DNA of 64,000 nucleotides, from positions 1-64,000 of the forward strand of contig CAXIUP010000234.1 of NCBI GenBank assembly GCA_964035015.1, in the 5' to 3' direction. The notes beneath the pieces are model-generated. The model was not told the DNA's origin, did no database searches, and was given only the letters and a program-made list of their open reading frames with translations. Positions 45,110 to 64,000 of this stretch are shown piece after piece. Numbering within the stretch: position 1 is the first letter of the stretch; each line of letters opens with the position of its first letter. This DNA comes from Corallium rubrum (lineage: Eukaryota > Cnidaria > Anthozoa > Scleralcyonacea > Coralliidae). The position numbers were made by a program, and so were the translations under genes.

Positions 45110-45497
45110 AAGGGCTCGGAGCCTGAATCCGGGGGCTCGGAGCTCGAAGCCGGGGCTCGGAGCTAGGAACCAAGAGATTGGACCCCGGGACTCGGAGCGG
45201 GAGCCGATGGCTCGGAGCCAGGAGCCGTGGGCTCGGAGCCAGGAGCCAAGGGCTCGGAGCTAGGAGCCGAGGGCTCGGAGCCAGTTGCCGGGGGCGCGGA
45301 GCCAGGAGCCAAGAGCCGGGGGCTCGGAGCCAGGAGCCGGGGGCTCGGAGCCAGGCGCCGGTAGCTCGGAGCCAGGAGCCAGGGGCTCGGAGCCAGGAGC
45401 CGGGGGGCTCAGAGCCAGGAGCCCAGGGCTCGGAGCCATGGGCCGGGGCCTCGGAGCCGGGAGCCATGGGCTCGCAGCTCGCAGCCGGGAGTTCAGA
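45110..45497. repeat. 18-bp GGCTCGGAGCCAGGAGCC minisatellite (left arm)
   Basis: About twenty GC-rich units with small changes. The inverse array in the right arm is split by the Rep element: 54773-54898 and 59196-59425. Its long frames (SEPGARG-type) are artefacts. Confidence 0.95.
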
Positions 45498-45980
45498 GTC
45501 TTATCTTCCTTATCTTCCTCTTATCTTCCCATTATCTTCCTTTATCTTCCCATTATCTTCCTTGTCTTCCTCTTATCTGCCCCTTATCTTCCCCTTATCT
45601 TCCCCTTATCTTCCCATTATCTTCCTTATTTTCCTCTTATCTTCCTCTTATCTTCCCATTATCTTCCTTATTTTCCTCTTATCTTCCCATTATCTTCCTT
45701 TATCTTCCCATTATCTTCCTTATCTTCCTCTTATCTTCCCCTTATCTTCCCATTATCTTCCTCTTATCTTCCCCTTATCTTCCCATTATCTTCCTTTATC
45801 TTCCTCTTATCTTCCCCTTATCTTCCCCTTATCTTCCCCTTATCTTCCCCTTATCTTCCCCTTATCTTCCCCTTATCTTCCCCTTATCTTCCCCTTATCT
45901 TCCCATTATCTTCCTTATTTTCCTCTTATCTTCCCCTTATCTTCCCATTATCTTCCCATTATCTTCCTCATCTTCCTCTT
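45498..45980. repeat. TTATCTTCCYC minisatellite, first part
   Basis: 11-bp pyrimidine-rich units, e.g. TTATCTTCCTC and TTATCTTCCCC. Continues on the far side of the BEL element at 53210. Its proline/serine-rich frames are artefacts. Confidence 0.95.
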
Positions 45981-46457: not shown

Positions 46458-49214
46458 ATGGCCACCGGAAGTCTTCGTGATGAAGACATTTATAGCGATG
46501 AGAGCGTTATTAATTATGAAACTATTGATCAAGCAGGGCATAGTGAACAGCAACATGACCCTAACAAGCACGCTGATCCCAGTAAGATCCTACAGCAAAG
46601 GGCCACTAAAAGGCAACGAAGCCTCGCTACAATTTGGTCAAAATGTACTCGAGATCTTGAAATTGACATAGCATACATTGAGGAGAACCTTGATGCTATA
46701 ACGGATCCTCCAGTTATTCAGGAACTCCTTAGCCGGGTTGAGACCTTGTGGCTTTCATTCGAATCAACCCATGCCAAATATTATCCTGGAATAAAGAAAT
46801 CTAAACGTCAAAAGGAAACCGAACAACGATTCATTCTTTTGCAAAGGAGGTTTTTTGATATTATGGGGAGGTGCAGGCAACAATTACATTTTAAATTGCC
46901 TCAGCGAGTTGAAGATGATAATATCTCAATGTGCAGTAGAATTTCCATGAGTTCTCATGGGTCAAGGTTGTCAACAGTCTCTTCTGGTTCTTCCCAGAAA
47001 GAAAAATTGAGAACTGTCCTCTTGGCAAAAAAGAAGGTTGAGTTAGCAAGAGCTAGAGCGAAGGAAGAAGAAGAAGAGGCAAAGAGAAAGGCTCAACAAG
47101 ACTCAAGGAGAGAACTAAGGAGACTGGAAGAAGCAGCCACTCTAGCTGAATTAGAGTGGAAAATCGAAACAGAATATGATGAAGAAGCTGATTTGGTGGA
47201 CTTGATGAAAGAGTGTAAGCCCTTTGTACAAGATGGTAAGACCAAGTTCAGATTACAAAATAACACCATTACACACAGCCCACCTTCTCAAGGATTTTAC
47301 AAGGCTCCTGAAGTTTCTGGCCCAGTAAAGGAGACATCAAGCAAATATGGGGTTCTCCCAGAACACCCACAAGACTGGTCTACACCTTTCGATAACCTTG
47401 AAACTGTGGAAGAAGTCAATGGAATTGGAACAAAGACAATGAACAACAAACATAGAGTTACACTTCCTAAAACACCGAAATTAGGAAATTACCACAGCCC
47501 CACTCACAGCCTTTGCGAAGGGGATGAAACTAATGATAACCTTCCCTCGGACCCAGTTGCTGCAATGTGGAAAATCCAACTACTGAATGGTATTACTCCC
47601 AATAAGTTTTCTGGCAATCCATCAGAATTTCCTTTCTTCCGTGCACAGGTTCAAACACACCTGGAAAGTAAGCTACTTTCCGATGCTCAAAAGGTAGAGT
47701 ACCTACCCAAATTCCTTACTGGCGAAGCCCTCGAGGTGATCAAGAGGAACAGAGGTTGCTCATTCAGGGTCCTAATGGAAACACTCGAACAACGCTATGG
47801 ACAAGCGATCCAGATAGCTCAAGCATGCATAGAAGACCTTGTATCTGGCCCAAAATTAGCTTCTGGTGACAGTGCTGGGCTTCTCAATTTTGCAGAAAGG
47901 CTGAACACAGCCACGAAAGTGCTAACAGGGAGAAACGAGCAAGAAGTTAGTGTCGCCACCAATCTTAAAAGGATCGTTAGTCGTCTGTCAAATGATATTA
48001 TTGGAAGATGGCAAAATGAGAATTATAAGATTACCAGTCGTGGAGAGGTAGCTCGCCTTAAAGATATTGCAACATTTGTAAAGAAGCAAGCAGCAATAAA
48101 GAATGATCCAGTGTTCGGAAGCACCAAACAAGACAGCACTGGCAAAGATGGAAAACCCACTGTAGACAAATCATGGAAGAAGATGGATCAGACTGGGCCC
48201 CCTAAGCCAAGTACTATCGCTGCCACATCTGTCGATGACTCAGGTGAACACCCAAATGTCAACTGTGAAATTTGCAAAGGTACTTTGCATAAGTTCCACC
48301 AATGTCCCACCATCAAAGGTTGTAACAAGCTGGCAGTTAGAAGGCAATATGCAGCCTCATATGGATTTTGCTTTAATTGTGGAACACAATGTCCTGGCCA
48401 TTCCTCCAATAGCTGTCCTGATCCACCAGCCTGCCCTCACTGCCCTGGTCGCCACTTAGAGATCCTGCATAAGGACTATACAGGTAGATTTAATAACCGA
48501 ATGCTTCGTGCCAAGAATCAGGATAAAGTTGTGGGCCCAGATCCTCCAAAGGAAACCGTTCCAAGGGATCCTCCAAAACAACTACCGCAACAAGTAGACA
48601 GCAGTAAGGGCAGAATCACCGATAAAAAACCAGAAGCAGTTGTGAGCGTCGCTGGCCATGGAATAAGTAGAACAAAGACCCAAGTCCTGTTAAACGTGAT
48701 CCCAGTCATTATCACTTCCGAAGATGGGAACGCCACTTCTACATACGCCTTTCTGGACAATGGCTGCACTGATATCCTTATTGACCAAGAACTTGCCGAT
48801 CTTCTTCAAATCAAAGGCACTCCAGAAGATATCCAAATCAATACCATAACAACAAGCGACCAACCAACAAAAGCACAACGTGTGAAGTTTACCCTAAGCC
48901 CCGTCGAAGGGTCTGGAGACGACCTCAAAGTTGAGAATGCTTACATACTTCCAGACTTAAATCAGTCAGCGCGAGTACTACCAGGAGAAGTCAATGTATC
49001 ACAGCATCCTCACTTACAAGATCTGGAATTTCCCGATGTTAGTCTTAAGCGTGTCTCAGTTTTGGTAGGAAGCAACGTACCAATGGCACACCTTCAGAGA
49101 GAAGTAAGAGCCTTACATACTTCCAGACTTAAATCAGTCAGCGCGAGTACTACCAGGAGAAGTCAATGTATCACAGCATCCTCACTTACAAGATCTGGAA
49201 TTTCCCGATGTTAG
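46458..49214 (+). CDS. BEL Gag and protease part, frame cut by a duplication
   Basis: 918-residue frame, ATG at 46458. In order: a DUF1759-type Gag region (KFSGNPSEFPFFRAQVQTHL, FLTGEALEVIKR), a coiled Glu/Arg/Lys-rich stretch near residues 180-260, Cys/His knuckles (CEICKGTLHKFHQC; CFNCGTQCPGHSSNSC) and the aspartic protease (TYAFLDNGCTDILI, active Asp in DNG). The proper reading ends where the second copy of the 172-bp duplication begins (49112); residues after that are out of frame. Gag packages RNA and the protease cuts the polyprotein. Confidence 0.9.
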   Translation: MATGSLRDEDIYSDESVINYETIDQAGHSEQQHDPNKHADPSKILQQRATKRQRSLATIWSKCTRDLEIDIAYIEENLDAITDPPVIQELLSRVETLWLSFESTHAKYYPGIKKSKRQKETEQRFILLQRRFFDIMGRCRQQLHFKLPQRVEDDNISMCSRISMSSHGSRLSTVSSGSSQKEKLRTVLLAKKKVELARARAKEEEEEAKRKAQQDSRRELRRLEEAATLAELEWKIETEYDEEADLVDLMKECKPFVQDGKTKFRLQNNTITHSPPSQGFYKAPEVSGPVKETSSKYGVLPEHPQDWSTPFDNLETVEEVNGIGTKTMNNKHRVTLPKTPKLGNYHSPTHSLCEGDETNDNLPSDPVAAMWKIQLLNGITPNKFSGNPSEFPFFRAQVQTHLESKLLSDAQKVEYLPKFLTGEALEVIKRNRGCSFRVLMETLEQRYGQAIQIAQACIEDLVSGPKLASGDSAGLLNFAERLNTATKVLTGRNEQEVSVATNLKRIVSRLSNDIIGRWQNENYKITSRGEVARLKDIATFVKKQAAIKNDPVFGSTKQDSTGKDGKPTVDKSWKKMDQTGPPKPSTIAATSVDDSGEHPNVNCEICKGTLHKFHQCPTIKGCNKLAVRRQYAASYGFCFNCGTQCPGHSSNSCPDPPACPHCPGRHLEILHKDYTGRFNNRMLRAKNQDKVVGPDPPKETVPRDPPKQLPQQVDSSKGRITDKKPEAVVSVAGHGISRTKTQVLLNVIPVIITSEDGNATSTYAFLDNGCTDILIDQELADLLQIKGTPEDIQINTITTSDQPTKAQRVKFTLSPVEGSGDDLKVENAYILPDLNQSARVLPGEVNVSQHPHLQDLEFPDVSLKRVSVLVGSNVPMAHLQREVRALHTSRLKSVSASTTRRSQCITASSLTRSGISRC

Positions 49215-49283
49215 TCTTAAGCGTGTCTCAGTTTTGGTAGGAAGCAACGTACCAATGGCACACCTTCAGAGAGAAGTAAGAGC
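48940..49283 (+). repeat. 172-bp perfect tandem duplication in BEL pol
   Basis: Copies 48940-49111 and 49112-49283. Since 172 is not a multiple of three, it shifts frame between the protease and reverse transcriptase. Confidence 0.95.
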
Positions 49284-52200
49284 GCCAGAAGACAAGAGCA
49301 ATGGTCTATACGCATACAGATTTCCACTCGGATGGAGTCTTTCTGGTCCCCTCGACACCAACGGCAGTAAAACAAGTTCGGTCAACTTCGTTTCATTAGA
49401 CCAGAATTTGAATGATCAAGTGGAACGCTTTTGGGCAGTTGAAGATTACGGCGCAGTAAAGAGGAAGGAGAAATCCCTGTCAGTGGAAGACAAGCGCGCC
49501 CTACAAATCATTCAAGACACAACTCAATTCGAAGACGGACATTACCAAGTCGGCCTGTTATGGAAGGAAGACGAGCCTCGTTTACCAAATAATCGAGCTA
49601 TGGCTGAAAGGCGACTAGAGTCAACGCGACGACGTTTGGCGAGACCCGAAAATGAAGAATTAGCAGGTAAATATCGAGCCGTGATGACGGATTACATTAA
49701 AAAAGGGTATGCACGTCGACTCAGTCCAGAAGAAAGTGCTAAAAACGGCCCAAAATGCTGGTACTTACCTCACCACCCTGTAACAAACCCCCATAAACCG
49801 GATAAAGTTCGAATAGTTTTCGACGCCGCAGCAGAATTTGAAGGGACGTCCCTCAACAAACATCTTCTGCATGGCCCCGACATGACAAACAGCTTGACAG
49901 GAGTATTGTTACGTTTCCGACAAGGCAGTGTTGGCATGGCTGCCGACATCGAGGCTATGTTCCATCAGGTGAAAGTTCAAAAGCAAGATCAAGACGCCTT
50001 ACGATTTCTGTGGTGGACAGATAGCTACACAGACTCACCCGATGTCTACGTTATGCAAGTACATATATTCGGAGCTACCTCATCCCCTTGCGTCGCCAAC
50101 TCTACTCTGCGACGGACCGCCATCGATAATGCTGAAAGTTTTGATAAGGAAGTCCTCGAAGCGATAAACACTAATTTCTATGTTGACGATGGTTTGCCCT
50201 CCTGCAATGATCCCGACTCAGCCATACGATTGGCCACTGGAATGATGGGTATACTGAATCAAGGTGGTTTTCACTTGACGAAATTCACGTCGAACAGCAA
50301 ACAAGTGCTGTCTGCCATTCCGGCTGAGAGAAGATCATCGCCTAACTTGAATCTTGATCTAGATGAACTGCCAATAGAGAGAGCCTTGGGAGTGCGGTGG
50401 TTCGTGGAAACGGACGAGATAGGATTCGAAATTCGAGATTTAAAACGACCAGAAACCAAACGTGGAATATTATCCACAGTCTGCTCTGTATACGACCCAC
50501 TTGGAATAGCTGCCCCGGTGACGCTTTCTGCAAGAGCAATTATACAGCACTTGTGGAAGGCGAAAGTTAATTGGGACGATCCACTAGATCCTCGGACATC
50601 GCAGAGATGGAACAGATGGAAGAATCAACTGGCATCGTTATCCAATCTTCGCATCCCACGCTGCTATTTCTCGCCTGAGACGGATTCGTCTCAATGTCAC
50701 CTGCAACTGCACCACTTCTCCGACGCCTCTGAAGTTGGCTACGGCACGTGTTCGTATTTGCGAATTGAATATCCCGACGGTACTATTCGGTGTGCTTTCA
50801 TCATTGGCAAATCTCGAAACGCTCCAGTCAAATTTACGAGCATCCCCAGATTAGAACTGCAGGCTGCCGTTCTGGCAACACGCATGAACAAAATGCTGCA
50901 AGAGGAACTAACTCTTTCCATTAAGAAGACCGTGTATTGGACCGACAGCGAAATAGTGCTGCACTACCTCAGGAACAAAAACCGCCGTTTTCAAACCTAT
51001 GTGGCCAACCGAATTGGGGAAATTAAGGAAAACTCGCAAGTGGAAGAATGGAGGCACATTCCAGGAGTAATGAATCCCGCAGACGACGTATCGCGAGGCC
51101 TGGATCCGTCAGAGCTGTCCCCTAAACACCGTTGGCTGCACGGCCCCGAGTTCTTGTGGCATCCCGAAGCTTCCTGGCCCACCGCAGACCTAGCTTCAGT
51201 CTCAGACGACCAACTGGAACTACGGAAGGAAAGCAACCTATATTCCTCAACTGTCGTAACACAGACGGAGTCAAGCGAAGTAAATGAATCAACCTCCACC
51301 AAGGGTAAGCTTCATCAAATAATTGACCGCTGTTCCGACTGGTCGCAGCTAAAGCGAAGAATGGCTTGGCTGATCAGATTTACGCAATTTATTCGTGATC
51401 GTAAGAGTCTGAAGAACGGAGGGCTTTTGCCCGAAGATTACGAAGCTGCCACCAACGCAATTGCAAGGGTTGTTCAAAAGGAAGCGTATGGAAGTGAAAT
51501 CGCAGATCTAAGAGGTGGACGACCCGTTAAAACTACCAGCAAGATTGCCAACTTAAATCCTGTTCTCGACGACCATGGCGTGTTAAGGATAAATGGGCGC
51601 ATTAAGAACGCTTCTGTGGATCACGACGCCAAGCATCAAATAATCCTCCCAAGGAATTACCACGCGTCCTCAGTCTTAGTGCTACATATCCACAAATCCA
51701 TTGGGCACTTAGGACGTGAACATGTAATAGCCCAACTTCGACAGAAATTTTGGATTCCCCAAGTTAGAGTGTTGGTTCGCTCAGTTCTTGGTGGATGTTT
51801 CAAATGCAAGAAGATCCATGCAAAACCAATGACACAGCAGATGGCACCTTTGCCTAAGGATCGTCTGACAGCCTACCAACCTCCATTTACTTCTACTGGT
51901 ATGGACATGTTTGGTCCTTTATATGTCAAGCACGGGAGAGGAACTGCCAAACGCTGGGGTTGCTTGTTTACTTGCCTGACCACGCGTAGCATTCATTTAG
52001 AGTTGACGAACTCCCTTGAAACAGATGATTTCATAATGTGCCTGAGAAGATTTATCAACAGACGAGGTGAAGTTATCGAGCTACGATGTGATAATGGGTC
52101 CAATTTCGTAGGCGCGGAACGAGAGTTGAAGGATGGTATGAATTCTTGGAACGATGACCGGATTACGAAGGAACTTGCGGAACAGGGATGTAAGTGGGTG

Positions 52201-52572
52201 TTCCAGCCTCCCACGGCCTCAAGTATGTCAGGAGTGTGGGAACGATTAGTTCGTAGCGTTAAAAGGGTTTTGAAGTCAGTCATCGGTTCACGCCTTGTTA
52301 CCGACGTGGTCCTGCAAACTTTGTTTACAGAAGTGGAACGAATCTTGAACGGGAGAGCCCTTACCGCAAATTCTGACGACCCAAACGACCTTGAACCACT
52401 CACGCCAGCTCACTTTCTAATGCAGCGAAAGGTTGTGCCCTTGCCACCTGGAGTTTTTACCAAGAATGATACGTATAGCAGAAAGAAGTGGAGGCAGGTG
52501 CAATATTTAGCTGGGGGAAATGGCAACGATGGAGAACGAACCTACAACCAAATGACCTCGTCCTACTCGTAG
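49234..52572 (+). CDS. BEL Pol: reverse transcriptase, RNase H, integrase (3' end damaged)
   Basis: 1112-residue frame in the register that would continue Gag if the 172-bp duplication were absent. Reverse transcriptase with AADIEAMFHQVKV and FYVDDGLP (catalytic YVDD). RNase H with HHFSDASEVGYG, the metal-binding LELQAAVLA and YWTDSEIVL. Integrase zinc-binding HIHKSIGHLGREHV..CFKCKK. Integrase core: first Asp in GMDMFGPL, second in LRCDNGSNFVGAE, Glu in SGVWERLVRSVK. The C-terminal DUF5641-like part (FSWGKWQRWRTNLQPNDLVL) is present only in another frame from 52488, after an internal loss near 52500. Nuclear DNA integration step of the retrotransposon cycle. Confidence 0.9.
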   Translation: MVGSNVPMAHLQREVRAPEDKSNGLYAYRFPLGWSLSGPLDTNGSKTSSVNFVSLDQNLNDQVERFWAVEDYGAVKRKEKSLSVEDKRALQIIQDTTQFEDGHYQVGLLWKEDEPRLPNNRAMAERRLESTRRRLARPENEELAGKYRAVMTDYIKKGYARRLSPEESAKNGPKCWYLPHHPVTNPHKPDKVRIVFDAAAEFEGTSLNKHLLHGPDMTNSLTGVLLRFRQGSVGMAADIEAMFHQVKVQKQDQDALRFLWWTDSYTDSPDVYVMQVHIFGATSSPCVANSTLRRTAIDNAESFDKEVLEAINTNFYVDDGLPSCNDPDSAIRLATGMMGILNQGGFHLTKFTSNSKQVLSAIPAERRSSPNLNLDLDELPIERALGVRWFVETDEIGFEIRDLKRPETKRGILSTVCSVYDPLGIAAPVTLSARAIIQHLWKAKVNWDDPLDPRTSQRWNRWKNQLASLSNLRIPRCYFSPETDSSQCHLQLHHFSDASEVGYGTCSYLRIEYPDGTIRCAFIIGKSRNAPVKFTSIPRLELQAAVLATRMNKMLQEELTLSIKKTVYWTDSEIVLHYLRNKNRRFQTYVANRIGEIKENSQVEEWRHIPGVMNPADDVSRGLDPSELSPKHRWLHGPEFLWHPEASWPTADLASVSDDQLELRKESNLYSSTVVTQTESSEVNESTSTKGKLHQIIDRCSDWSQLKRRMAWLIRFTQFIRDRKSLKNGGLLPEDYEAATNAIARVVQKEAYGSEIADLRGGRPVKTTSKIANLNPVLDDHGVLRINGRIKNASVDHDAKHQIILPRNYHASSVLVLHIHKSIGHLGREHVIAQLRQKFWIPQVRVLVRSVLGGCFKCKKIHAKPMTQQMAPLPKDRLTAYQPPFTSTGMDMFGPLYVKHGRGTAKRWGCLFTCLTTRSIHLELTNSLETDDFIMCLRRFINRRGEVIELRCDNGSNFVGAERELKDGMNSWNDDRITKELAEQGCKWVFQPPTASSMSGVWERLVRSVKRVLKSVIGSRLVTDVVLQTLFTEVERILNGRALTANSDDPNDLEPLTPAHFLMQRKVVPLPPGVFTKNDTYSRKKWRQVQYLAGGNGNDGERTYNQMTSSYS

Positions 52573-53209: not shown

Positions 53210-54772
53210 CTCTTATCTTCATCTTATCTTCCTTATCTTCCCATTATCTTCCTTATCTTCCTTATCTTCCTCTTATCTTCATCTTATCTTCCTTATCTTC
53301 CCATTATCTTCCTTATCTTCCTCTTATCTTCCCCTTATCTTCCCCTTATCTTACCATAATCTTCCTTTATCTCCCTCTTATCTTCCCCTCATCTTCCCCC
53401 TATCTTCCCATTATCTTCCTTATTTTCCTCTTATCTTCCCCTTATCTTCCCCTTATCTTCCCCTTATCTTCCCCTTATCTTCCCCTTATCTTCCCCTTAT
53501 CTTCCCATTATCTTCCTTATTTTCCTCTTATCTTCCCCTTATCTTCCCATTATCTTCCCATTATCTTCCTTATCTTCCTCTTATCTTCATCTTATCTTCC
53601 TTATCTTCCCGTTATCTTCCCATTATCTTCCTTATCTTCCTTATCTTCCTCTTATCTTCATCTTATCTTCCTTATCTTCCCATTATCTTCCTTATCTTCC
53701 TCTTATCTTCCTCTTATCTTCCCCTTATCTTACCATAATCTTCCTTTATCTCCCTCTTATCTTCCCCTCATCTTCCCCCTATCTTCCCATTATCTTCCTT
53801 ATTTTCCTCTTATCTTCCCCTTATCTTCCCATTATCTTCCTTATCTTCCTTATCTTCCCCTTATCTTCCTTATCTACCTCTTATCTTCCCCTTATCTTCC
53901 CCTTTACCTTTCTTATCTTCCCTTTATCTCCTTCTTATCTTCCTTATATTCCACTTATCTTCTCATAAGATTGATTCAATCTTAGGATACAATTATTCAA
54001 GCTTGTAAGAATCAATCTTATGGGAAGATATAAGGAAGATAAGAAGGAGATAAAGGGAAGATAAGAAAGGTAAAGGGAAGATAAGGGGAAGATAAGGGGA
54101 AGATAAGAGGTAGATAAGGAAGATAAGGGGAAGATAAGGAAGATAAGGGGAAGATAATGGGAGGATAAGAGGAAAATAAGGAAGATAATGGGAAGATAGG
54201 GGGAAGATGAGGGGAAGATAAGAGGAAGATAAAGCAAGATTATGGTAAGATAAGGGGAAGAGAAGGGGAAGATAAGAGGAAGATAAGGAAGATAAGGAAG
54301 ATAATGGGAAGATAAGGGGAAGATAAGGAAGATAAGATGAAGATAAGAGGAAGATAAGGAAGATAATGGGAAGATAATGGGAAGATAAGGGGAAGATAAG
54401 AGGAAAATAAGGAAGATAATGGGAAGATAAGGGGAAGATAAGGGGAAGATAAGGGGAAGATAAGGGGAAGATAAGGGGAAGATAAGGGGAAGATAAGAGG
54501 AAGATAAAGGAAGATAATGGGAAGATAAGGGGAAGATAAGAGGAAGATAAGGAAGATAATGGGAAGATAAAGGAAGATAATGGGAAGATAAGAGGAAAAT
54601 AAGGAAGATAATGGGAAGATAAGAGGAAGATAAGAGGAAAATAAGGAAGATAATGGGAAGATAAGGGGAAGATAAGGGGAAGATAAGGGGCAGATAAGAG
54701 GAAGACAAGGAAGATAATGGGAAGATAAAGGAAGATAATGGGAAGATAAGAGGAAGATAAGGAAGATAAGAC
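53210..54772. repeat. TTATCTTCC minisatellite and its inverse (palindrome centre)
   Basis: 53210-53965 continues the TTATCTTCCYC array. Then comes a short hinge (CATAAGATTGATTC..GAATCAATCTTATG), and 54010-54772 is the reverse-complement array (GGAAGATAAGG). Frames on both strands are repeat artefacts. Confidence 0.95.
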
Positions 54773-54898
54773 TCCGAACTCCAGGCTGCGAGCTCCGAGC
54801 CCATGGCTCCCGGCTCCGAGGCCCCGGCCCATGGCTCCGAGCCCTGGGCTCCTGGCTCTGAGACCCCCCGGCTCCTGGCTCCGAGCCCTTGGCTCCTG

Positions 54899-55150
54899 CA
54901 ATCGTGGACAAAACTGTTAATAAAATTAATAAAAATAGTAACAAAAGAGTAGTAACTAATGTTTGAAGGACTTTCTGTCCCCCCTCCCCCATTCAATGTT
55001 GAATTTATATTTCGCACATGGTTACATCATACCAACATTGTTCGGGGGAGGTGGGGGGAAGGTCTTTCCTGTAAATCGAACGAATTAAGTAGGATTAAAC
55101 AAAAAGTTTACACGTTGGAACATTTTATTGACAGGTTTTGTCCACGATTG
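54899..55150 (+). repeat. 252-bp terminal direct repeat, left
   Basis: Identical to 58944-59195. Foldback structure with 16-bp inverted ends. Confidence 0.93.
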
Positions 55151-55303
55151 TCTGAATTTGACGGGTTCATATATGCATCTTTTTAAACGCTTTTAAAGCC
55201 ATATGGCCTTGCAATTAAGAACTTAAGTTCATATGTGTGTAGCCTAGTACCTTAAGTGTTGTACCAATTACAATTAATTATTAGATAATTAATGACGTCA
55301 TAG

Positions 55304-55330
55304 AAAACGCTATAAACTGTTATAAAGTGG
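55304..55330 (+). promoter_or_regulatory. Possible TATA region before the transposase gene
   Basis: CTATAAACTGTTATAAAG lies 25-45 bp before the ATG at 55350. Position and words fit a core promoter; weak evidence. Confidence 0.3.
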
Positions 55331-55349
55331 GTTCAATCGAGGGTTCAAT

Positions 55350-56447
55350 ATGGCGTTTAGTGGAAAGTTTTCACCGGAAAAAAGAGCCTACATAAAACTT
55401 ATGGGCAAAACTGGTACGCATACTGCTAGAGAAGTTGCTGATGAATGTAAAGTGTCTGTGCCAAGCGTTTATAGAATCTGGAAGGAGAAATTTTCAAAGG
55501 AATTAAAAAGAAAGCAGAAAACAAAGAATAGAGGTGGCAGGCCGGAGAAAATAAATCTAAGACAAAAGCGGTCTATTTTGCGAAATATTAACATTTTGAG
55601 AGAAGAAAATAGCAATTTTACATCGAAGAAATTACTTCTCAGTTCTGGAATAAACCCTAATGCTATTTCGTCGCGGACATTGCGCCGTTTCTTGAATAAA
55701 AACGGATACCATTATTTGCAAGCGAGGAAAAAAGGTGTATTAAGTAAGACTGATATTCGAAAGCGATATAAGTTTGGGAGAACAATGAAAAGGGAATTCA
55801 GTAGTGATGTTTGGACGAAACAAATTGCATTTTATCTAGATGGAGTAAGCTTTATACACAAAACAAATCCAGCGGATGAAGCTAAGGCGCCAAAAGGAAG
55901 GATTTGGAGAAGAGCAAATGAAGGCATGGATCGAGGGTGCACAGCCAAGGGTAGTCACGAAGGATCTGGCGGGAAGGTTGTCAAGATGATGGTTGCAGTA
56001 AGCCACGGAGCAGGCGTTGTGTTATGCGACCAGTATCAGAAGTTAGACGGACAGTATTTTAAAGATCTTGTGCTTAGAGAATTTCCCCAAATGTTTAAAA
56101 AGGCACGCAAAGGTCGGTCTCGTCTCTGGTTACAAGATGGGGATCCTAGTCAAAATAGTGCATTGGCAAGAATGGCAATGAAATCAATACGGGCAAAATT
56201 ATTATCAATACCTGCACGTAGCCCAGACATAAACCCCGTCGAAAATTTGTTTCACCTCATAAAGCGAAAACTTAATAATGATGCAATTGTGCGAAATATA
56301 AAGAAAGAGACTTTTCAAGAATTTTCCGCTCGAGTTCAATCTACGATACTTCATTTTGATAAAACTCATATTGACAAAACTATAGAAAGTATGAATAATC
56401 GCATCGAAATGATTATAGCTAAGAAAGGAAACAGAATCAGATACTAA
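55350..56447 (+). CDS. Tc1-like (DD34E) transposase of the Rep-bearing unit
   Basis: Single intact frame of 365 residues, ATG at 55350, slightly longer than typical Tc1. N-terminal helix-turn-helix (GTHTAREVADECKVSVPSVY), a GGRPEK hook, and a second helix-turn-helix (ISSRTLRRFLNKNGYHY). The catalytic core has Asp in FYLDGVSFIH and WLQDGDPSQNS and Glu in RSPDINPVENLFHLIK, with 34 residues between the last two. It could insert the unit into DNA, but the ends do not show the TA duplication expected of Tc1 elements, so its target and mode are open. Convergent with the Rep gene, which ends about 820 bp away. Confidence 0.88.
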   Translation: MAFSGKFSPEKRAYIKLMGKTGTHTAREVADECKVSVPSVYRIWKEKFSKELKRKQKTKNRGGRPEKINLRQKRSILRNINILREENSNFTSKKLLLSSGINPNAISSRTLRRFLNKNGYHYLQARKKGVLSKTDIRKRYKFGRTMKREFSSDVWTKQIAFYLDGVSFIHKTNPADEAKAPKGRIWRRANEGMDRGCTAKGSHEGSGGKVVKMMVAVSHGAGVVLCDQYQKLDGQYFKDLVLREFPQMFKKARKGRSRLWLQDGDPSQNSALARMAMKSIRAKLLSIPARSPDINPVENLFHLIKRKLNNDAIVRNIKKETFQEFSARVQSTILHFDKTHIDKTIESMNNRIEMIIAKKGNRIRY

Positions 56448-56703
56448 GTATATAATCACGCTGTGCGTTTTAATTGTTACTATTGTCTATTATGTGCCGA
56501 GCCTAACAAACTGGAATTTAAAGTGTAATAATCAAACAGTAATTTCTTATATATCATACATGTAAAATATCGTAAAGTGTTTTAATTATCTAAGTATTTT
56601 CAACAAATGAAATGCCTCGATCTTCACTGCACAGTGAGTTACAAGACAAGTGTGAAATATTTACATGGGGAGACTTTAATTACTTATGTGTGTCCTACGC
56701 GAC

Positions 56704-57109
56704 GGTTAACCACGATTAACCCATGTTCGTACGATTGAATTTTATGTTAAGAAAAACATATACTTTCAACATGGACGTTCACATAGCATTATAATACGTT
56801 GTTAATAGAATAAAATACAACGCGTCACATAAAAACTATGAAACAGCTACTTTAGAACGGTTAACCACGGTTAACCTCGATGATCATAAGGTAAATAGAG
56901 TGTGATGTTTATTTAATTGTCGTGGTTAACCGTGGTTAACCGTCGTATTTTCGCAAATTCAAGACATATAATATACTTAATATCACGTCATCTTTTGTGT
57001 ATATAACTATAATCCAATCGTGAGAAAGTAAAACACATTTGAGTAACATTCTTAGTGTTAAATTTAGTTTAAGCGAGTGGTTAACCGTCATGGTTAACCG
57101 TGGTTAATC
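56704..57109. promoter_or_regulatory. Iteron-like GGTTAACC repeats between transposase and Rep genes
   Basis: Four clusters: 56704-56721, 56859-56876, 56924-56941 and 57079-57109. The first two read GGTTAACCACGRTTAACC, and the last two read the opposite sense, GGTTAACCGTGGTTAACC (with a third half-site in the last). Paired 8-bp palindromes, arranged as inverted pairs, next to a Rep gene resemble Rep-binding iterons at a replication origin. No nonanucleotide hairpin was recognised. Confidence 0.6.
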
Positions 57110-57269
57110 GTCAGCTACATGAGCGAGGTCACGCGGTCAATTCTATTTTTAATACCGTTTAATCAGTTCACTATTTTAACCCAAAATATATTATATAATA
57201 GTCCCTTAAAATGTTTAACTTTTCAATAGTCAATATGAAGCATTATATAAAACGTCAACGATATAATAT

Positions 57270-58612
57270 TTATCTGCTAAGGATAAGGTCAGCAAAGCAC
57301 TTGCAACACGATTCCATTTCCTTTTGGCGTGTCTCGAATATTTGCCAGTTGAAACGGAATATTTTCCAACGGACAGACATCATCTCCGTCTCGCGGTCAT
57401 CAATGCATCCATTCTTCACAAAGCAGATGGGATTCTTGCCTGTCGCGAAAATTGGGGTATCACTTGCAAAACATATATCTTTCGCATAGTGCGTCTTCGG
57501 CGCGGGTAGATGAACTAATTGTCCTTCTAACAGGAGCAATAAATCGTGCCATGGGATAATGGCTTGCGACCACCGGAAATCGTTCAGAAACAAACATTCC
57601 GCCTTCTCAGCATCAACCCAAGCAAACGTACTTGACGCAGGATTAGAAAATGTGGAAAATATTTTCGTTATTGGATTAATTATAAACGTTTTCCCACAAT
57701 TAGCAGGCCCGATGATCATAACGTTTCGGTACTTCCCCCGTCCTTTCGTTAACAAATTTATCACGGCTTGTTGAAATGAACTTCGTATAATCCCATTGTT
57801 CTCCAGTAGCTCTTTCGCTAATTGTAGCCAAACTCCATTACAGCCTTCGACACAACTACCTTCCCGAGCCTCATGCAACAATTGCATTCTCGACTTTTCC
57901 CTACGAAGCCTTTTTTCTTTAGCACACTCCATTTCCCAGGCTGTATCTAGAATTTCTGCAACAACCTTCGAGCCACGATTCACAATGAACTCTGCGATAT
58001 CTTTCTTTCCTTCGTCTTTTTGCTCTTTAGCCAAAATCAGAAGCTCCTCTCTTGATCTTATTCCTTTTTCCACAATGATTTCTGACATTTCAAAAGCCGT
58101 TAGGCGCTTGCGTTTTTTGCCCCTCTGTTCTCCTTCGCCGCCATCTTCGTCTTCGAGCATGTCATCACACGTGTCATGTCGTGCTTTTTTTGCTCGCAAT
58201 CTTCGCGTTTTGGTTGCCTCCGTAGTTTTCGGTTCCTTTTTTGAATTCCAAAGGTCTGGATGACCTTCACTTTCGATTGCATCTTTGTCGTCTTTCGTGG
58301 TATATGCCCATGCACTATAATAATTATCATGGACAGCGAATAGTTGACGGATATACCATTGTTGCTCGTTAAATACCGCTTACTTGAGAGCCATCGTTGA
58401 TTTTTATTGAACTTCATTGCCATATGATAGTGCTTTCCAGACATCTGGTGTTCCTCTTGACTACAACACCACTGTTCAATAGTTGCAGACACACCACTGA
58501 ACGACGCGACAACCGCATCGGCGAATGAACGTCGCGTAGGAAACTTAACCAAGTCAGCTTGGCTATAAGTTATCAAATAAACTTGCCGAATACATCTTGA
58601 ACTTAATTCCAT
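57270..58612 (-). CDS. Rep-like protein: HUH endonuclease plus SF3 helicase, one frameshift
   Basis: Start ATG at 58612. HUH domain motifs: motif I in VYLITYSQADL, motif II in GKHYHMAMKF (H-x-H), motif III YTTKDD (Tyr plus Lys, seen after the shift). The frame jumps by one base near 58337, between VNYS and the following HDNYYSAW. It then stays open to 57270 through a Lys-rich linker and a superfamily-3-type helicase with Walker A GPANCGKT, a Walker-B-like ECLFLNDFRW and a motif-C-like ICFASDTPIFATGKNP. About 445 residues in all. Such Reps nick an origin and unwind DNA during rolling-circle or rolling-hairpin replication of small ssDNA viruses (CRESS-like) and related elements. The motif I and YxxK style resembles CRESS Reps. 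Whether this is a captured viral gene or a transposon gene is open. Confidence 0.78.
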
Positions 58613-58943
58613 GACTTGTAGCGATTCGTTTGCCTAACTATCGATTTCTCACTAAACGCAATTATAACTTTTCTATATTTTCTCAGCAGAGTATATGTAT
58701 GTGTTGTGTCAGCCACGTGAAGATATGCTTATGTGATATTTAAGCACAACAAGGGGTCCTTCATGCCATGTTGAAATATACAATGGAAATAATTTAAATA
58801 AATACAATGGAATGCAAATTAGCTTAAATATGTCTTTTAAAGAGTTGATTGAGTTATTTTTGTGGCAATTTCCAGTATAAATCCATGCAAATGTTAGTTT
58901 TGGGAGACATAAACGTGTGCTTGCGTGCGTAACATTTCCCAGA
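58613..58943. other. Upstream region of Rep gene
   Basis: AT-rich, no gene. Presumed promoter region of Rep on the minus strand. Ends in TTCCCAGA next to the right 252-bp repeat. Confidence 0.4.
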
Positions 58944-59195
58944 CAATCGTGGACAAAACTGTTAATAAAATTAATAAAAATAGTAACAAAAGAGTAGTAA
59001 CTAATGTTTGAAGGACTTTCTGTCCCCCCTCCCCCATTCAATGTTGAATTTATATTTCGCACATGGTTACATCATACCAACATTGTTCGGGGGAGGTGGG
59101 GGGAAGGTCTTTCCTGTAAATCGAACGAATTAAGTAGGATTAAACAAAAAGTTTACACGTTGGAACATTTTATTGACAGGTTTTGTCCACGATTG
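58944..59195 (+). repeat. 252-bp terminal direct repeat, right
   Basis: Same orientation and, by eye, same sequence as 54899-55150. Confidence 0.93.
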
Positions 59196-59425
59196 TGGCT
59201 CCGAGCCCTTGGCTCCTGGCTCCGAGCCCCCGGCTCCTGGCTCCGAGCCCTCGGCTCCTGGTTCCGAGCCCCCGGCTCCTGGCTCCAAGCCCTCGGCTCC
59301 TAGCTCCGAGCCCTTGGCTCCTGGCGCCGAGCCCTCGGCTCCTGGCTCCGAGCCATCGGCTCCTAGCGCCGAGCCCCGGCTTCGAGCTCCGAGCCCCCGG
59401 ATTCAGGCTCCGAGCCCTTTCATCC
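59196..59425. repeat. 18-bp minisatellite, right arm (inverse orientation)
   Basis: GGCTCCTGGCTCCGAGCC-type units, mirror of 45110-45497, continuing the short part at 54773-54898 across the inserted unit. Confidence 0.93.
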
Positions 59426-59461
59426 TCCTGTTTCTCTTATTTTATAACACCGCCTCCAAAA

Positions 59462-59701
59462 GTTGAACAACCAACACTTAAACATAATTTCTTTCATAAC
59501 TGGGAAAGCTCTTCGGAGTGGAAAGAAAGCGACTTGGCAAAGATGTCCCCGGGTGAAAGAGGAGAGTATGAACACCATCTAATGATGACTAGATCAAAAT
59601 ATTTACCTATGACAAAAGAAGATGTGTCCCAATTATCATCAGAGGACAAGAAAGACTATCGTGCTACTTTTAAAATAAAAACACCTAAATATATAATCTA
59701 A
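59462..59701 (+). CDS. Arm-encoded 3' exon, right copy (unknown protein)
   Basis: Mirror of 44828-45067, same residues as far as read, stop followed by AATAAA near 59776. A 66-codon frame is also kept in both arms (44358-44558 minus, 59971-60171 plus), as expected from arm identity rather than selection. Confidence 0.45.
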   Translation, partial: VEQPTLKHNFFHNWESSSEWKESDLAKMSPGERGEYEHHLMMTRSKYLPMTKEDVSQLSSEDKKDYRATFKIKTPKYII

Positions 59702-60479
59702 GAAGCAGACCTTACTAAAACTTTTTATATGTAACCGTAATTTGTTTTGATATGTGTAAGTTTAAACCAAAGCCTAAATAAATACTTTAAACTGATTGTT
59801 GTGAATTCTGTCTTTTGCAAAATACACGCTAATCACCTTTTCGCCTAGACTTGCCGCTGTTCATACCCCTTATTATCCTTTCACAACCCCATAAATAATT
59901 ACATATTCTACAGTGTATGCAAATTCGGTTAGATTTAGGTCATTAGTAACTTTAACGAGCTTTCCCTTTTGTGTTCTGCACGTGCGAGAATCTTGTTTAT
60001 ATCGTTCTTATTAACAGAAAGCCTAGTAACCATGATGTATCTCAGTTATATATGGACAAGTCTTTGCTCTTCGCTTTTCGAATTGATTTGTGTCTTCTTA
60101 CGACTTCTCGAACTGTTTCTTCATCCAAGGAATCACTAGTAGGTTATAGACTAAGGTTAGATAGGCAATAATTCGACCAAAACTGTCAACATTCATCTCT
60201 TCGAAAATAACACTCGGATTACTTAACCAAAAACCCGCTATATTCCTCCAAACCAAGTTTAAGATAAAAAATATAAAGTGCCTCTATCCATTTCTGTTTC
60301 GTTCCTCTACAAACTAGGCCAAAGTAAACGATAACTCTCTAAAATTGTTAACACTTATTGCCACCAAACGTGTATAAGACTGTTTGGTCATTTAGGTTCT
60401 GACTAATATAATATTCAAAGTCTCCATATTATTCAAATAATATTCAGGTTTGACCAGAGCAGTTATCTCTGCCAATTCA

Positions 60480-61044: not shown

Positions 61045-63667
61045 AATATCATACAAATACACAATTTTCTCAGGCGCTATTCGATACGATTTTTTTAAAA
61101 TTAACATATCTTGTACAGAATTTCATGCTCTTTCATCTAGTATAAGTCTCCAGAGTAGCAAAGACCCATGAACGACGTAGGCAAGCTTTAAACAAATTGC
61201 GGCGCGGCGTTATTAATACGACTGACGGGGGTTGTGTTGTATATTGCATATACATCAGATTATAAACACGATTTTCTCAGCCGCTATTCTATACGATTTT
61301 CTAAAATTTACATATGTTGTAGAGAATTTCATGCTCTTTCATCTAGTATAAGTCTCCAGAGTAGCAAAGACTCATGGACGACGTAGGCAAGCTTTAAACA
61401 AATTGCGGCGCGGCGTCATTAATACGACTGACGGGGGTTGTGTTGTATATTGCATATACATCAGATTATAAACACAATTTTCTCAGCCGCTATTCTATAC
61501 GATTTTCTAAAATTTACATATGTTGTAGAGAATTTCATGCTCTTTCATCTAGCATAAGTCTCCGAGTGGCATAGACCCATGAACGACGCAGGCAAGCTTT
61601 AAACACATTGCGGCGCGGTGTAATTAATACGACCGACGGGGCTTGTGTTGACATTTACTGTTGTACATTGCATTATACATCAGATATAAACACAATTTTC
61701 TCAGCCGCTATTCTATACGATTTTCTAAAATTTACATATGTTGTAGAGAATTTCAAGCTCTTTAATCTAGTATAAGTCTCCAGAGTGGCATAGACCCATG
61801 AACGACGCAGGAAAGCTTTAAACAAATTGCGGCGCGGTGTTATTAATACGACTGACGCGGGGGTTGCCTTGCATGTCTCAGATTACATCGGAAAAAGTAC
61901 AATTTTCTCAGCCGCTATTCAATACGATTTTTTTTAATTTACATATGTTGTAGAGAATTTCATGCTCTTTCATGTAGTGTAAGTCTCCAGAGTGGCATAG
62001 ACCCATGAACGACGCAGGAAAGCTTTAAACAAATTGCGGCGCGGTGTCATTAATATGAATGACGGGGTTGTTTTGTATATTGCATATACATCAGATATAA
62101 ACACAATTTTCTCAGCCGCTATTCTATACGATTCTTTTAAATTTACATATGTGGTAGAGAATTTCATGCTCTTTCATCTAGTATAGGTCTCCAGAGTGGC
62201 ATAGACCCATGAACGACGCAGGAAAGCTTTAAACAAATTGCGGCGCGGTGTTATTAATACGACTGACGGAGGTTGCCTTGAATGTTTCAGATTACATCGG
62301 AAAAAGTACAATTTTCTCAGCCGCTATTCTATACGATTTTTTCAAATTTACATATGTTGTAGAGAATTTCAAGCTCTTTAATCTAGTATAAGTCTCCAGA
62401 GTGGCATAGACCCATGAACGACGCAGGAAAGCTTTAAACAAATTGCGGCGCGGTGTTATTAATACGACTGACGCGGGGGTTGCCTTGCATGTCTCAGATT
62501 ACATCGGAAAAAGTACAATTTTCTCAGCCGCTATTCAATACGATTTTTTTTAATTTACATATGTTGTAGAGAATTTCATGCTCTTTCATGTAGTGTGTCT
62601 CCAGAGTGGCATAGACCCATGAACGACGCAGGAAAGCTTTAAACAAATTGCGGCGCGGTGTCATTAATACGACTGACGGGGTTGTTTTGTATATTGCATA
62701 TACATCAGATATAAACACAATTTTCTCAGCCGCTATTCTATACGATTCTTTTAAATTTACATATGTGGTAGAGAATTTCATGCTCTTTCATCTAGTATAG
62801 GTCTCCAGAGTGGCATATACCCATGAACGACGCAGGAAAGCTTTAAACAAATTGCGGCGCGGTGTTATTAATACGACTGACGGAGGTTGCCTTGAATGTT
62901 TCAGATTACATCGGAAAAAGTACAATTTTCTCAGCCGCTATTCTATACGATTTTTTCAAATTTACATATGTTGTAGAGAATTTCAAGCTCTTTCATGTAG
63001 TATAAGTCTCCAGAGTGGCATAGACCCATGAACGACGCAGGAAAGCTTTAAACAAATTGCGGCGCGGTGTAATTAATACGACTGACGGGGGTTGTTTTGT
63101 ATATTGCATATACATCAGAAATAAACACAATTTTCTCAGCCGCTATTCTATACGATTTTTTAAATGCCACTCTGGAAATTTATGAAAGAGCTTGAAATTC
63201 TCTACAACATATGTAAATTTAAAAATCGTATAGAATAGCGGCTGAGAAAATTGTGTTTATATCTGGTGTATATGCAATATACAAAACAACCCCCGTCAGT
63301 CGTATTAATTGCACCGCGCCGCAATTTGTTTAAAGCTTTCCTGCGTCGTTCATGGGTCTATGCCACTCTGGAGACTTATACTAGATGAAAGAGCATGAAA
63401 TTCTCTACAACATATGTAAATTTAAAAAAATCGTATAGAATAGCGGCTGAGAAAATTGTACTTTTTCCGATGTAATCTGAAACATTCAAGGCAACCTCCG
63501 TCAGTCGTATTAATAACACCGCGCCGCAATTTGTTTAAAGCTTGCCTGCGTCGTTCATGGGTCTATGCCACTCTGGAAACTTATACTACATGAAAGAGCT
63601 TGAAATTCTCTACAACATATGTAAATTTAAAAAAATCGTATAGAATAGCGGCTGAGAAAATTGTGTT
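61045..63667. repeat. ~206-bp satellite array with orientation switch
   Basis: Ten forward units, counted by GCTTTAAACAAATTGCGGCG near 61185, 61391, 61597, 61815, 62022, 62226, 62431, 62636, 62840 and 63045 (spacing 204-207, once 218). A three-unit higher-order period of about 614 bp is visible (GCATGTCTCAGATTACATCG near 61875 and 62489). Near 63165 the array flips, and about 2.5 inverse units follow to 63667. The short frames within are artefacts. Confidence 0.95.
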
Positions 63668-64000
63668 TATATCTTTATTTATTTACAGTTATTTAAACAC
63701 GGTTAGTAGCCTTTCAACTTGTAACTAAACCTAAGAGTTATAAAAGTACCAAAAGTCATATAAATCAAGAGAAAGAAAAGGAAAAAAAAAGAAAGTTGAT
63801 TTTCAAAGGGCCGTGTAAGAAATAAGATAAAAACTATATTTACAGGAATAAGAAAACACTAAATAGATATATTTACATAAAAAATTTATGATATATTAAA
63901 AAGAAAAGTGACACACGTATAAAATTTGATAAGAATATTATGGTATTAAACAGCCACTGGGCTTCTAAAATTTTCCATAAACAGGGAGATCGTTCCAGAC
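63668..64000 (-). other. AT-rich edge; possible LINE 3' tail
   Basis: On the minus strand the last bases read VWNDLPVYGK, like the end of a LINE ORF2, followed by an AT-rich tail ending in TAAATAAATAAAG. Too little is inside the window to be sure. Confidence 0.3.

Follow-up and report, generated by a model that had tools for sequence, protein, structure and literature searches.

The closest published case that we found to the element reported here is the geminivirus-like transposon of Tuber melanosporum, a repeated element with terminal inverted repeats (TIRs) that combines a Rep-like open reading frame (ORF) with transposase ORFs (PMC3198968). The accessible text of that report gives it 37-bp TIRs, no obvious target duplication and a geminivirus-type Rep, with transposase ORFs that are interrupted or truncated. 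Our element lies at positions 54,899 to 59,195 of a 64,000-nucleotide stretch of the Corallium rubrum genome (contig CAXIUP010000234.1; the whole stretch is hereafter the window) and likewise unites a Rep and a transposase in one TIR-bearing repeated element. A terminal cassette, R, arrays, footprints and target duplications set it apart from the Tuber element as that accessible text describes it (PMC3198968), which leaves the latter as a partial precedent and our claim to novelty conditional. A body of ~3.8 kb encodes Rep and a Tc1-type transposase, and one R cassette, 145–254 bp long, stands directly before the TCT of the body start. We consider it likely that these are integrating replicons of animal genomes, in which Rep would produce body plus R as circles or concatemers, and the transposase would insert these via the outer ends of two R copies.

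Taken singly, the Rep and the transposase are each of a known kind. Like Tc1, Mos1 and Sleeping Beauty of the Tc1/mariner group, the element has a DD34E transposase of the corresponding fold, TIRs, a 2-bp, mostly TA, target duplication and footprints of 3–4 bases. Unlike them, it measures 4.3 kb and carries a second gene, Rep, so it is not a compact transposase-only element; its ends also bear a palindromic cassette in direct repeat, and it frequently forms head-to-tail arrays bounded as one unit. Helitrons differ in their PIF1-type helicase, where a superfamily 3 (SF3) helicase is present here, and in making no target duplications instead of 2-bp ones.

Parvovirus genomes are similar in size to the element. 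Parvoviruses, represented by adeno-associated virus (AAV) and by the Saccoglossus element in the accessible text of PMC3198968, further share with it an HUH plus SF3 Rep and a palindromic terminal sequence; unlike theirs, its ends are direct rather than inverted, a transposase lies beside Rep, the Rep nuclease fold is closest to CRESS Reps among solved structures, and no capsid candidate was found, in that the window element holds no further unspliced ATG ORF of at least 100 amino acids. With CRESS-DNA viruses and integrative rolling-circle plasmids, as the accessible part of PMC6668415 presents them, the element shares a YxxK HUH Rep joined to a helicase and the form of a plasmid-sized integrating replicon, whereas it is eukaryotic, presumably integrates by means of a Tc1-type transposase and lacks a detectable capsid ORF. 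No description of this design was found in the open-access literature, Repbase and preprints not being covered, and the accessible portions of PMC6668415, PMC5013282 and PMC2872659 describe nothing of the kind.

Architecture of the window element

Two copies of R in the same orientation (54899..55150 and 58944..59195, both on the + strand) enclose the body, with the left end of the left copy and the right end of the right copy forming the outer ends of the element. They are identical over 252 bp, the 253rd matching base being a shared T. The body starts with TCTG (55151..55154) and closes, where it adjoins the right R, with the inverse sequence CAGA (58940..58943). A 2-bp target duplication, TG, flanks the whole (54897..54898 and 59196..59197). 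The transposase is encoded on the + strand (55350..56447, 365 amino acids) and Rep on the − strand, as a Parvo_NS1-like SF3 helicase part (57270..58160, a 296-amino acid ORF) and an HUH nuclease part (58100..58612) in a different frame. An iteron region, GGTTAACC (56704..57109), separates the genes at their 3′ ends and is a candidate Rep-binding origin. Self-comparison and the ORFs thus bear out the first-pass annotation of identical 252-bp direct repeats around a transposase (+) and an HUH/SF3 Rep (−).

R consists of 28-bp TIRs at its outer ends and a palindromic C-rich core. The same annotation had held that the unit is not built like Tc1 elements, with TIRs and TA targets; this part has to be given up, as the unit possesses the 28-bp TIRs and a 2-bp target duplication, TG. 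Its description of each repeat as a foldback was sound: folded as DNA with a few flanking bases, R reaches −48.7 kcal/mol (z −6.9), and none of 200 shuffled sequences was equally stable. While R itself folds strongly, the iterons sit outside it, in the GGTTAACC region. A search of Rfam returned two matches only, both far below the gathering score.

The transposase ORF matches the Pfam families DDE_3 (6e-10) and HTH_Tnp_Tc3_2 (3e-8) and has a Tc1/mariner-type fold; the catalytic D, D and E are present in all 29 aligned sequences, the window included, with 34 residues between the last two. The Rep helicase ORF matches Parvo_NS1 at 21.6 bits (cut-off 20), and the HUH ORF of the window Rep has no Pfam match of its own. 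Rep joins a single-tyrosine, YxxK-type HUH nuclease to the SF3 helicase, the best solved matches of the nuclease fold are CRESS Reps, and the key motifs do not vary among the 38 relatives aligned. Relatives with an unbroken frame are present in the database.

R copies and families in the Corallium genome

In the genome of origin (474 Mb, 312 contigs), R recurs at 98% identity or above in 15 places, one of them partial; it adjoins a Rep-transposase body in 14 and stands solo in one. The first-pass alternative, by which R would be an abundant free miniature inverted-repeat transposable element with Rep and transposase unlinked, was rejected on this count of one solo R in 15 for the window's family, and the two genes are also adjacent in the other four families described below. 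A second candidate, a Tc1 element nested within a Rep element, was rejected because the transposase has no TIR pair of its own (self-comparison, E 0.01) and because the gene pairing recurs in five families.

Seven insertions of this family (family 1) have the 2-bp duplications TG (window), CT, TA (the solo R), TG, AA, TA and TA; when the right-hand dinucleotides were shuffled among them, all matched in 0.2% of trials. Two further loci, L026 and L027, were excluded from this count. The solo R bears on a rival route, in which the transposase first places a solo R and a circle later integrates there through homologous recombination. Such recombination yields direct repeats and preserves the old 2-bp duplication, and one solo R with TA does exist, but solo targets should then outnumber filled ones, whereas one of the 15 near-identical family-1 R copies is solo; we regard this route as quite improbable.

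Family-1 R pairs are direct in all six cases. Relative to the body, R points one way in the window and at L009, L011, L012 and L026, and the reverse way at L013, L014/15 and L027. Within pairs, variants common to several copies (alignment columns 176 and 204) agree, and the other differences occur in a single R. The paired reversal, together with the agreement of shared variants, fits a stage at which each molecule has a single R. At L013, two bodies form a dimer with no R between them, joined as CAGA-CTG-TCTG; the two bodies differ at none of 3787 positions, against 29–38 differences from other full copies and 15–42 among the remaining full-copy pairs. L027 shares this junction and then breaks off. 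At L014/L015 (C1:66.45 Mb), a family-1 copy is interrupted twice: ~7 kb of other sequence splits its iteron region and ~0.5 kb its transposase gene.

Nine diverged matches to R (70–76%), lying in eight loci, were also found, and tblastn detected no Rep or transposase within 6–8 kb of them. L018–L025 represent a repeat with a stretch 70–76% like the R core; an ORF at L021 looks PIF1-like by eye, and the stretch is possibly a distant R in another element.

Five Rep families retain the R terminal motif and core, and Rep lies beside a transposase in all five looked at. The TCT at the body start is kept in families 1 to 5, and the bases preceding R are CAGA in families 1, 2 and 4 and AGGA in family 3 (family 5 unread). 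Family 2, on C32 and other contigs, has a 254-bp R (fold z −7.2), a Rep 56–58% identical and a transposase 36% identical, with terminal motif, core and CAGA/TCTG body junction as in family 1. The R-body layout is kept in family 3 (C30; R of 145 bp, target TA, Rep and transposase on the same strand), family 4 (C37; R of 254 bp, target TC) and family 5 (C12; R of 155 bp, left end only).

Arrays, target duplications and loss of R

Of 564 candidates in a genome search with the helicase part, 132 were scored, yielding 134 matches, or 132 once split ones were merged; the counts are lower bounds. At least 56 of the 132 Rep copies scored sit in 18 head-to-tail runs at a spacing of 3.0–4.6 kb, and neighboring Rep pairs numbered 38, against 0.17 expected with random placement of the 132 copies. 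No head-to-head neighbors within 5 kb occurred among the Rep copies listed. A run of two at C1:80.6 Mb joins different families, its copies being 46% and 58% identical to the query. Further runs were seen at C15, C25, C56 and other places.

All 20 insertions with both ends read, arrays included, carry 2-bp target duplications (TA 15, TG 2, and one each of CT, AA and TC). This result upholds the earlier proposal that a DDE transposase serves integration; homologous recombination, offered alongside it, is not needed because the duplications occur throughout. In family 2, TA stands on both sides of 11 of 11 such insertions, which comprise five arrays (of seven, six, four, three and three units) and six single elements. 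The largest array has seven units and spans 28 kb. Complete elements and whole arrays alike have R at both ends, with one duplication bounding each.

All 19 R pairs read over families 1–4 are in direct orientation. This count weighs on another rival, an integrated linear parvovirus-like virus with hairpin ends, whose direct repeats would be one flip/flop state. AAV ends flip and flop, R folds strongly and the helicase is parvovirus-like; yet independent flip and flop predicts that half of the pairs be inverted, the window element has no further unspliced ORF of at least 100 amino acids to offer as capsid, and the runs are head-to-tail, not head-to-head. We find this reading hardly tenable. The first-pass picture of a replicating element, circular or hairpin-ended, accordingly keeps its circular half, which the head-to-tail arrays fit, and loses its hairpin ends.

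R is absent at six inner junctions, where 3–4 bases are left: CTG, CATG, CAGG and CAG. Of the five junctions in the family-2 array at C32:10.19 Mb, the second and the fourth lack R and read CATG instead; CAGG and CAG are the other family-2 cases. Excision of Tc1 and Sleeping Beauty leaves similarly short footprints, and by comparison the R-less junctions appear to match Tc1/mariner excision footprints, their variety arguing for separate excisions of R. Inside the seven-unit array, an R with an internal deletion (L047, C32:80000-80900) resembles the outcome of interrupted repair after excision.

Since assemblers struggle with direct repeats and arrays and the window is repeat-rich, collapsed or expanded repeats were considered as an artefact of assembly. 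We judge this very improbable, given that the same layout stands at 20 places with different flanks and target duplications and that one array has periods of both 4005 and 3756 owing to its R-less units.

Relatives in other cnidarians

Of 1054 relatives of Rep, 120 were listed, and 119 of 120 transposase rows were used. Among the matches listed, the Rep relatives with a named organism come from the sea anemone Actinostola and the corals Acropora and Porites, and seven Rep and transposase contig pairs have equal size, against 1.5 expected after jittering (p 0.00055). Six of these pairs, plus the window family as a seventh paired by identity, gave a correlation of Rep with transposase distances of r 0.73, the best of 5040 pairings; the equal-size pair 3819 (Rep 98%, transposase 48% identical) was dropped as probably due to chance. 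Judged from these sequence distances, the two proteins appear to co-diverge elsewhere. Linkage of Rep and transposase holds in the four other families of the Corallium genome, and in foreign contigs is judged by equal size only. Scans of viral contigs and genome contigs found no relative.

A model for replication and integration

Taken together, a two-enzyme model emerges. Transposition of the element is well supported, and its replication as circles is what we infer from the frequent head-to-tail strings, which suggest circular copying before insertion. Rep would copy a circle of body plus R by the rolling-circle mode and give head-to-tail concatemers; the transposase would then make one cut at the outer end of an R copy and a second at the opposite outer end of a later copy, and insert the piece between. 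Choice of the next R would give the monomer R-body-R, of a further R an array, and of the same R a solo R. The direct orientation of R repeats would follow from there being one R per circle.

The main rival is cut and paste in its simple form, with arrays growing later: a plain composite transposon in which two R mini-elements flank a cargo, the 4.3-kb unit moves as such, Rep is a passenger and arrays arise by unequal crossing-over. The 2-bp duplications, TIRs and footprints require a transposase only, and Rep is interrupted in the window copy, as it is by stops in other copies. Against this stand the joint reversal of R at both ends and the shared R variants, which need a one-R stage; runs occur often, in several families and at numerous loci, and later growth does not readily account for arrays at so many sites with R copies that remain nearly identical. 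The invariance of the Rep motifs and the apparent co-divergence of Rep with the transposase count against a passenger Rep as well. We hold the composite transposon to be unlikely.

Several observations weigh against the integrating replicon itself. The reading comes from an assembly, in which no circle, nick or single-stranded form was seen and neither origin nor nick site was located, and unequal crossing-over could likewise have enlarged arrays once a single element had inserted. The right end is absent or unreadable at L026 and L027, and the foreign Rep/transposase pairs come from equal contig sizes. The window Rep has its HUH and helicase parts in separate frames, and four of eight family-1 helicase matches contain stop codons. 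Relative to the window, seven copied transposase regions, two of them from one dimer, show 2 synonymous and 30 nonsynonymous differences, which gives no sign of selection keeping the transposase in these copies.

On balance we also favor, with some reserve, treating the integrating replicon as a class of eukaryotic mobile element in its own right, namely a rolling-circle replicon with a Tc1/mariner transposase as integrase and R as its ticket. If so, two R ends of a concatemer would admit one or many units in a single transposition, explaining how a cut-and-paste enzyme inserts tens of kilobases of concatemer; R alone could jump or be excised, and bodies without R would stay trapped between others. 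Rolling-circle replication and cut-and-paste transposition, usually treated as separate in eukaryotes, would be joined. The design, common to five families of the host genome and with Rep relatives in other anemones and corals, would link single-stranded DNA viruses to transposons and make the origin of Rep-bearing transposons testable.

Surroundings of the element in the window

The window element is inserted within one 21-bp minisatellite array. Minisatellites built from a 21-bp unit (GCTCC) and an 11-bp unit (CTTATCTTCCC) in inverted arrangement occupy 45180-45967, 53212-54897 and 59196-59418. The flank at 59460-60460 proved to be a repeat in a search that scored 40 of 1852 candidates, its copies often forming inverted pairs a few kb apart, and 61048-63673 holds a satellite with a 205-bp unit in ~10 copies, then a shorter block. 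Two long ORFs at 46458-52572 (+) were named by eye as the gag- and pol-like parts of a BEL/Pao-like retrotransposon; a 172-bp unit is duplicated exactly in tandem at 48940-49283. ORFs named by eye as hAT-like, Tc1-like and IS630-like lie elsewhere in the window.
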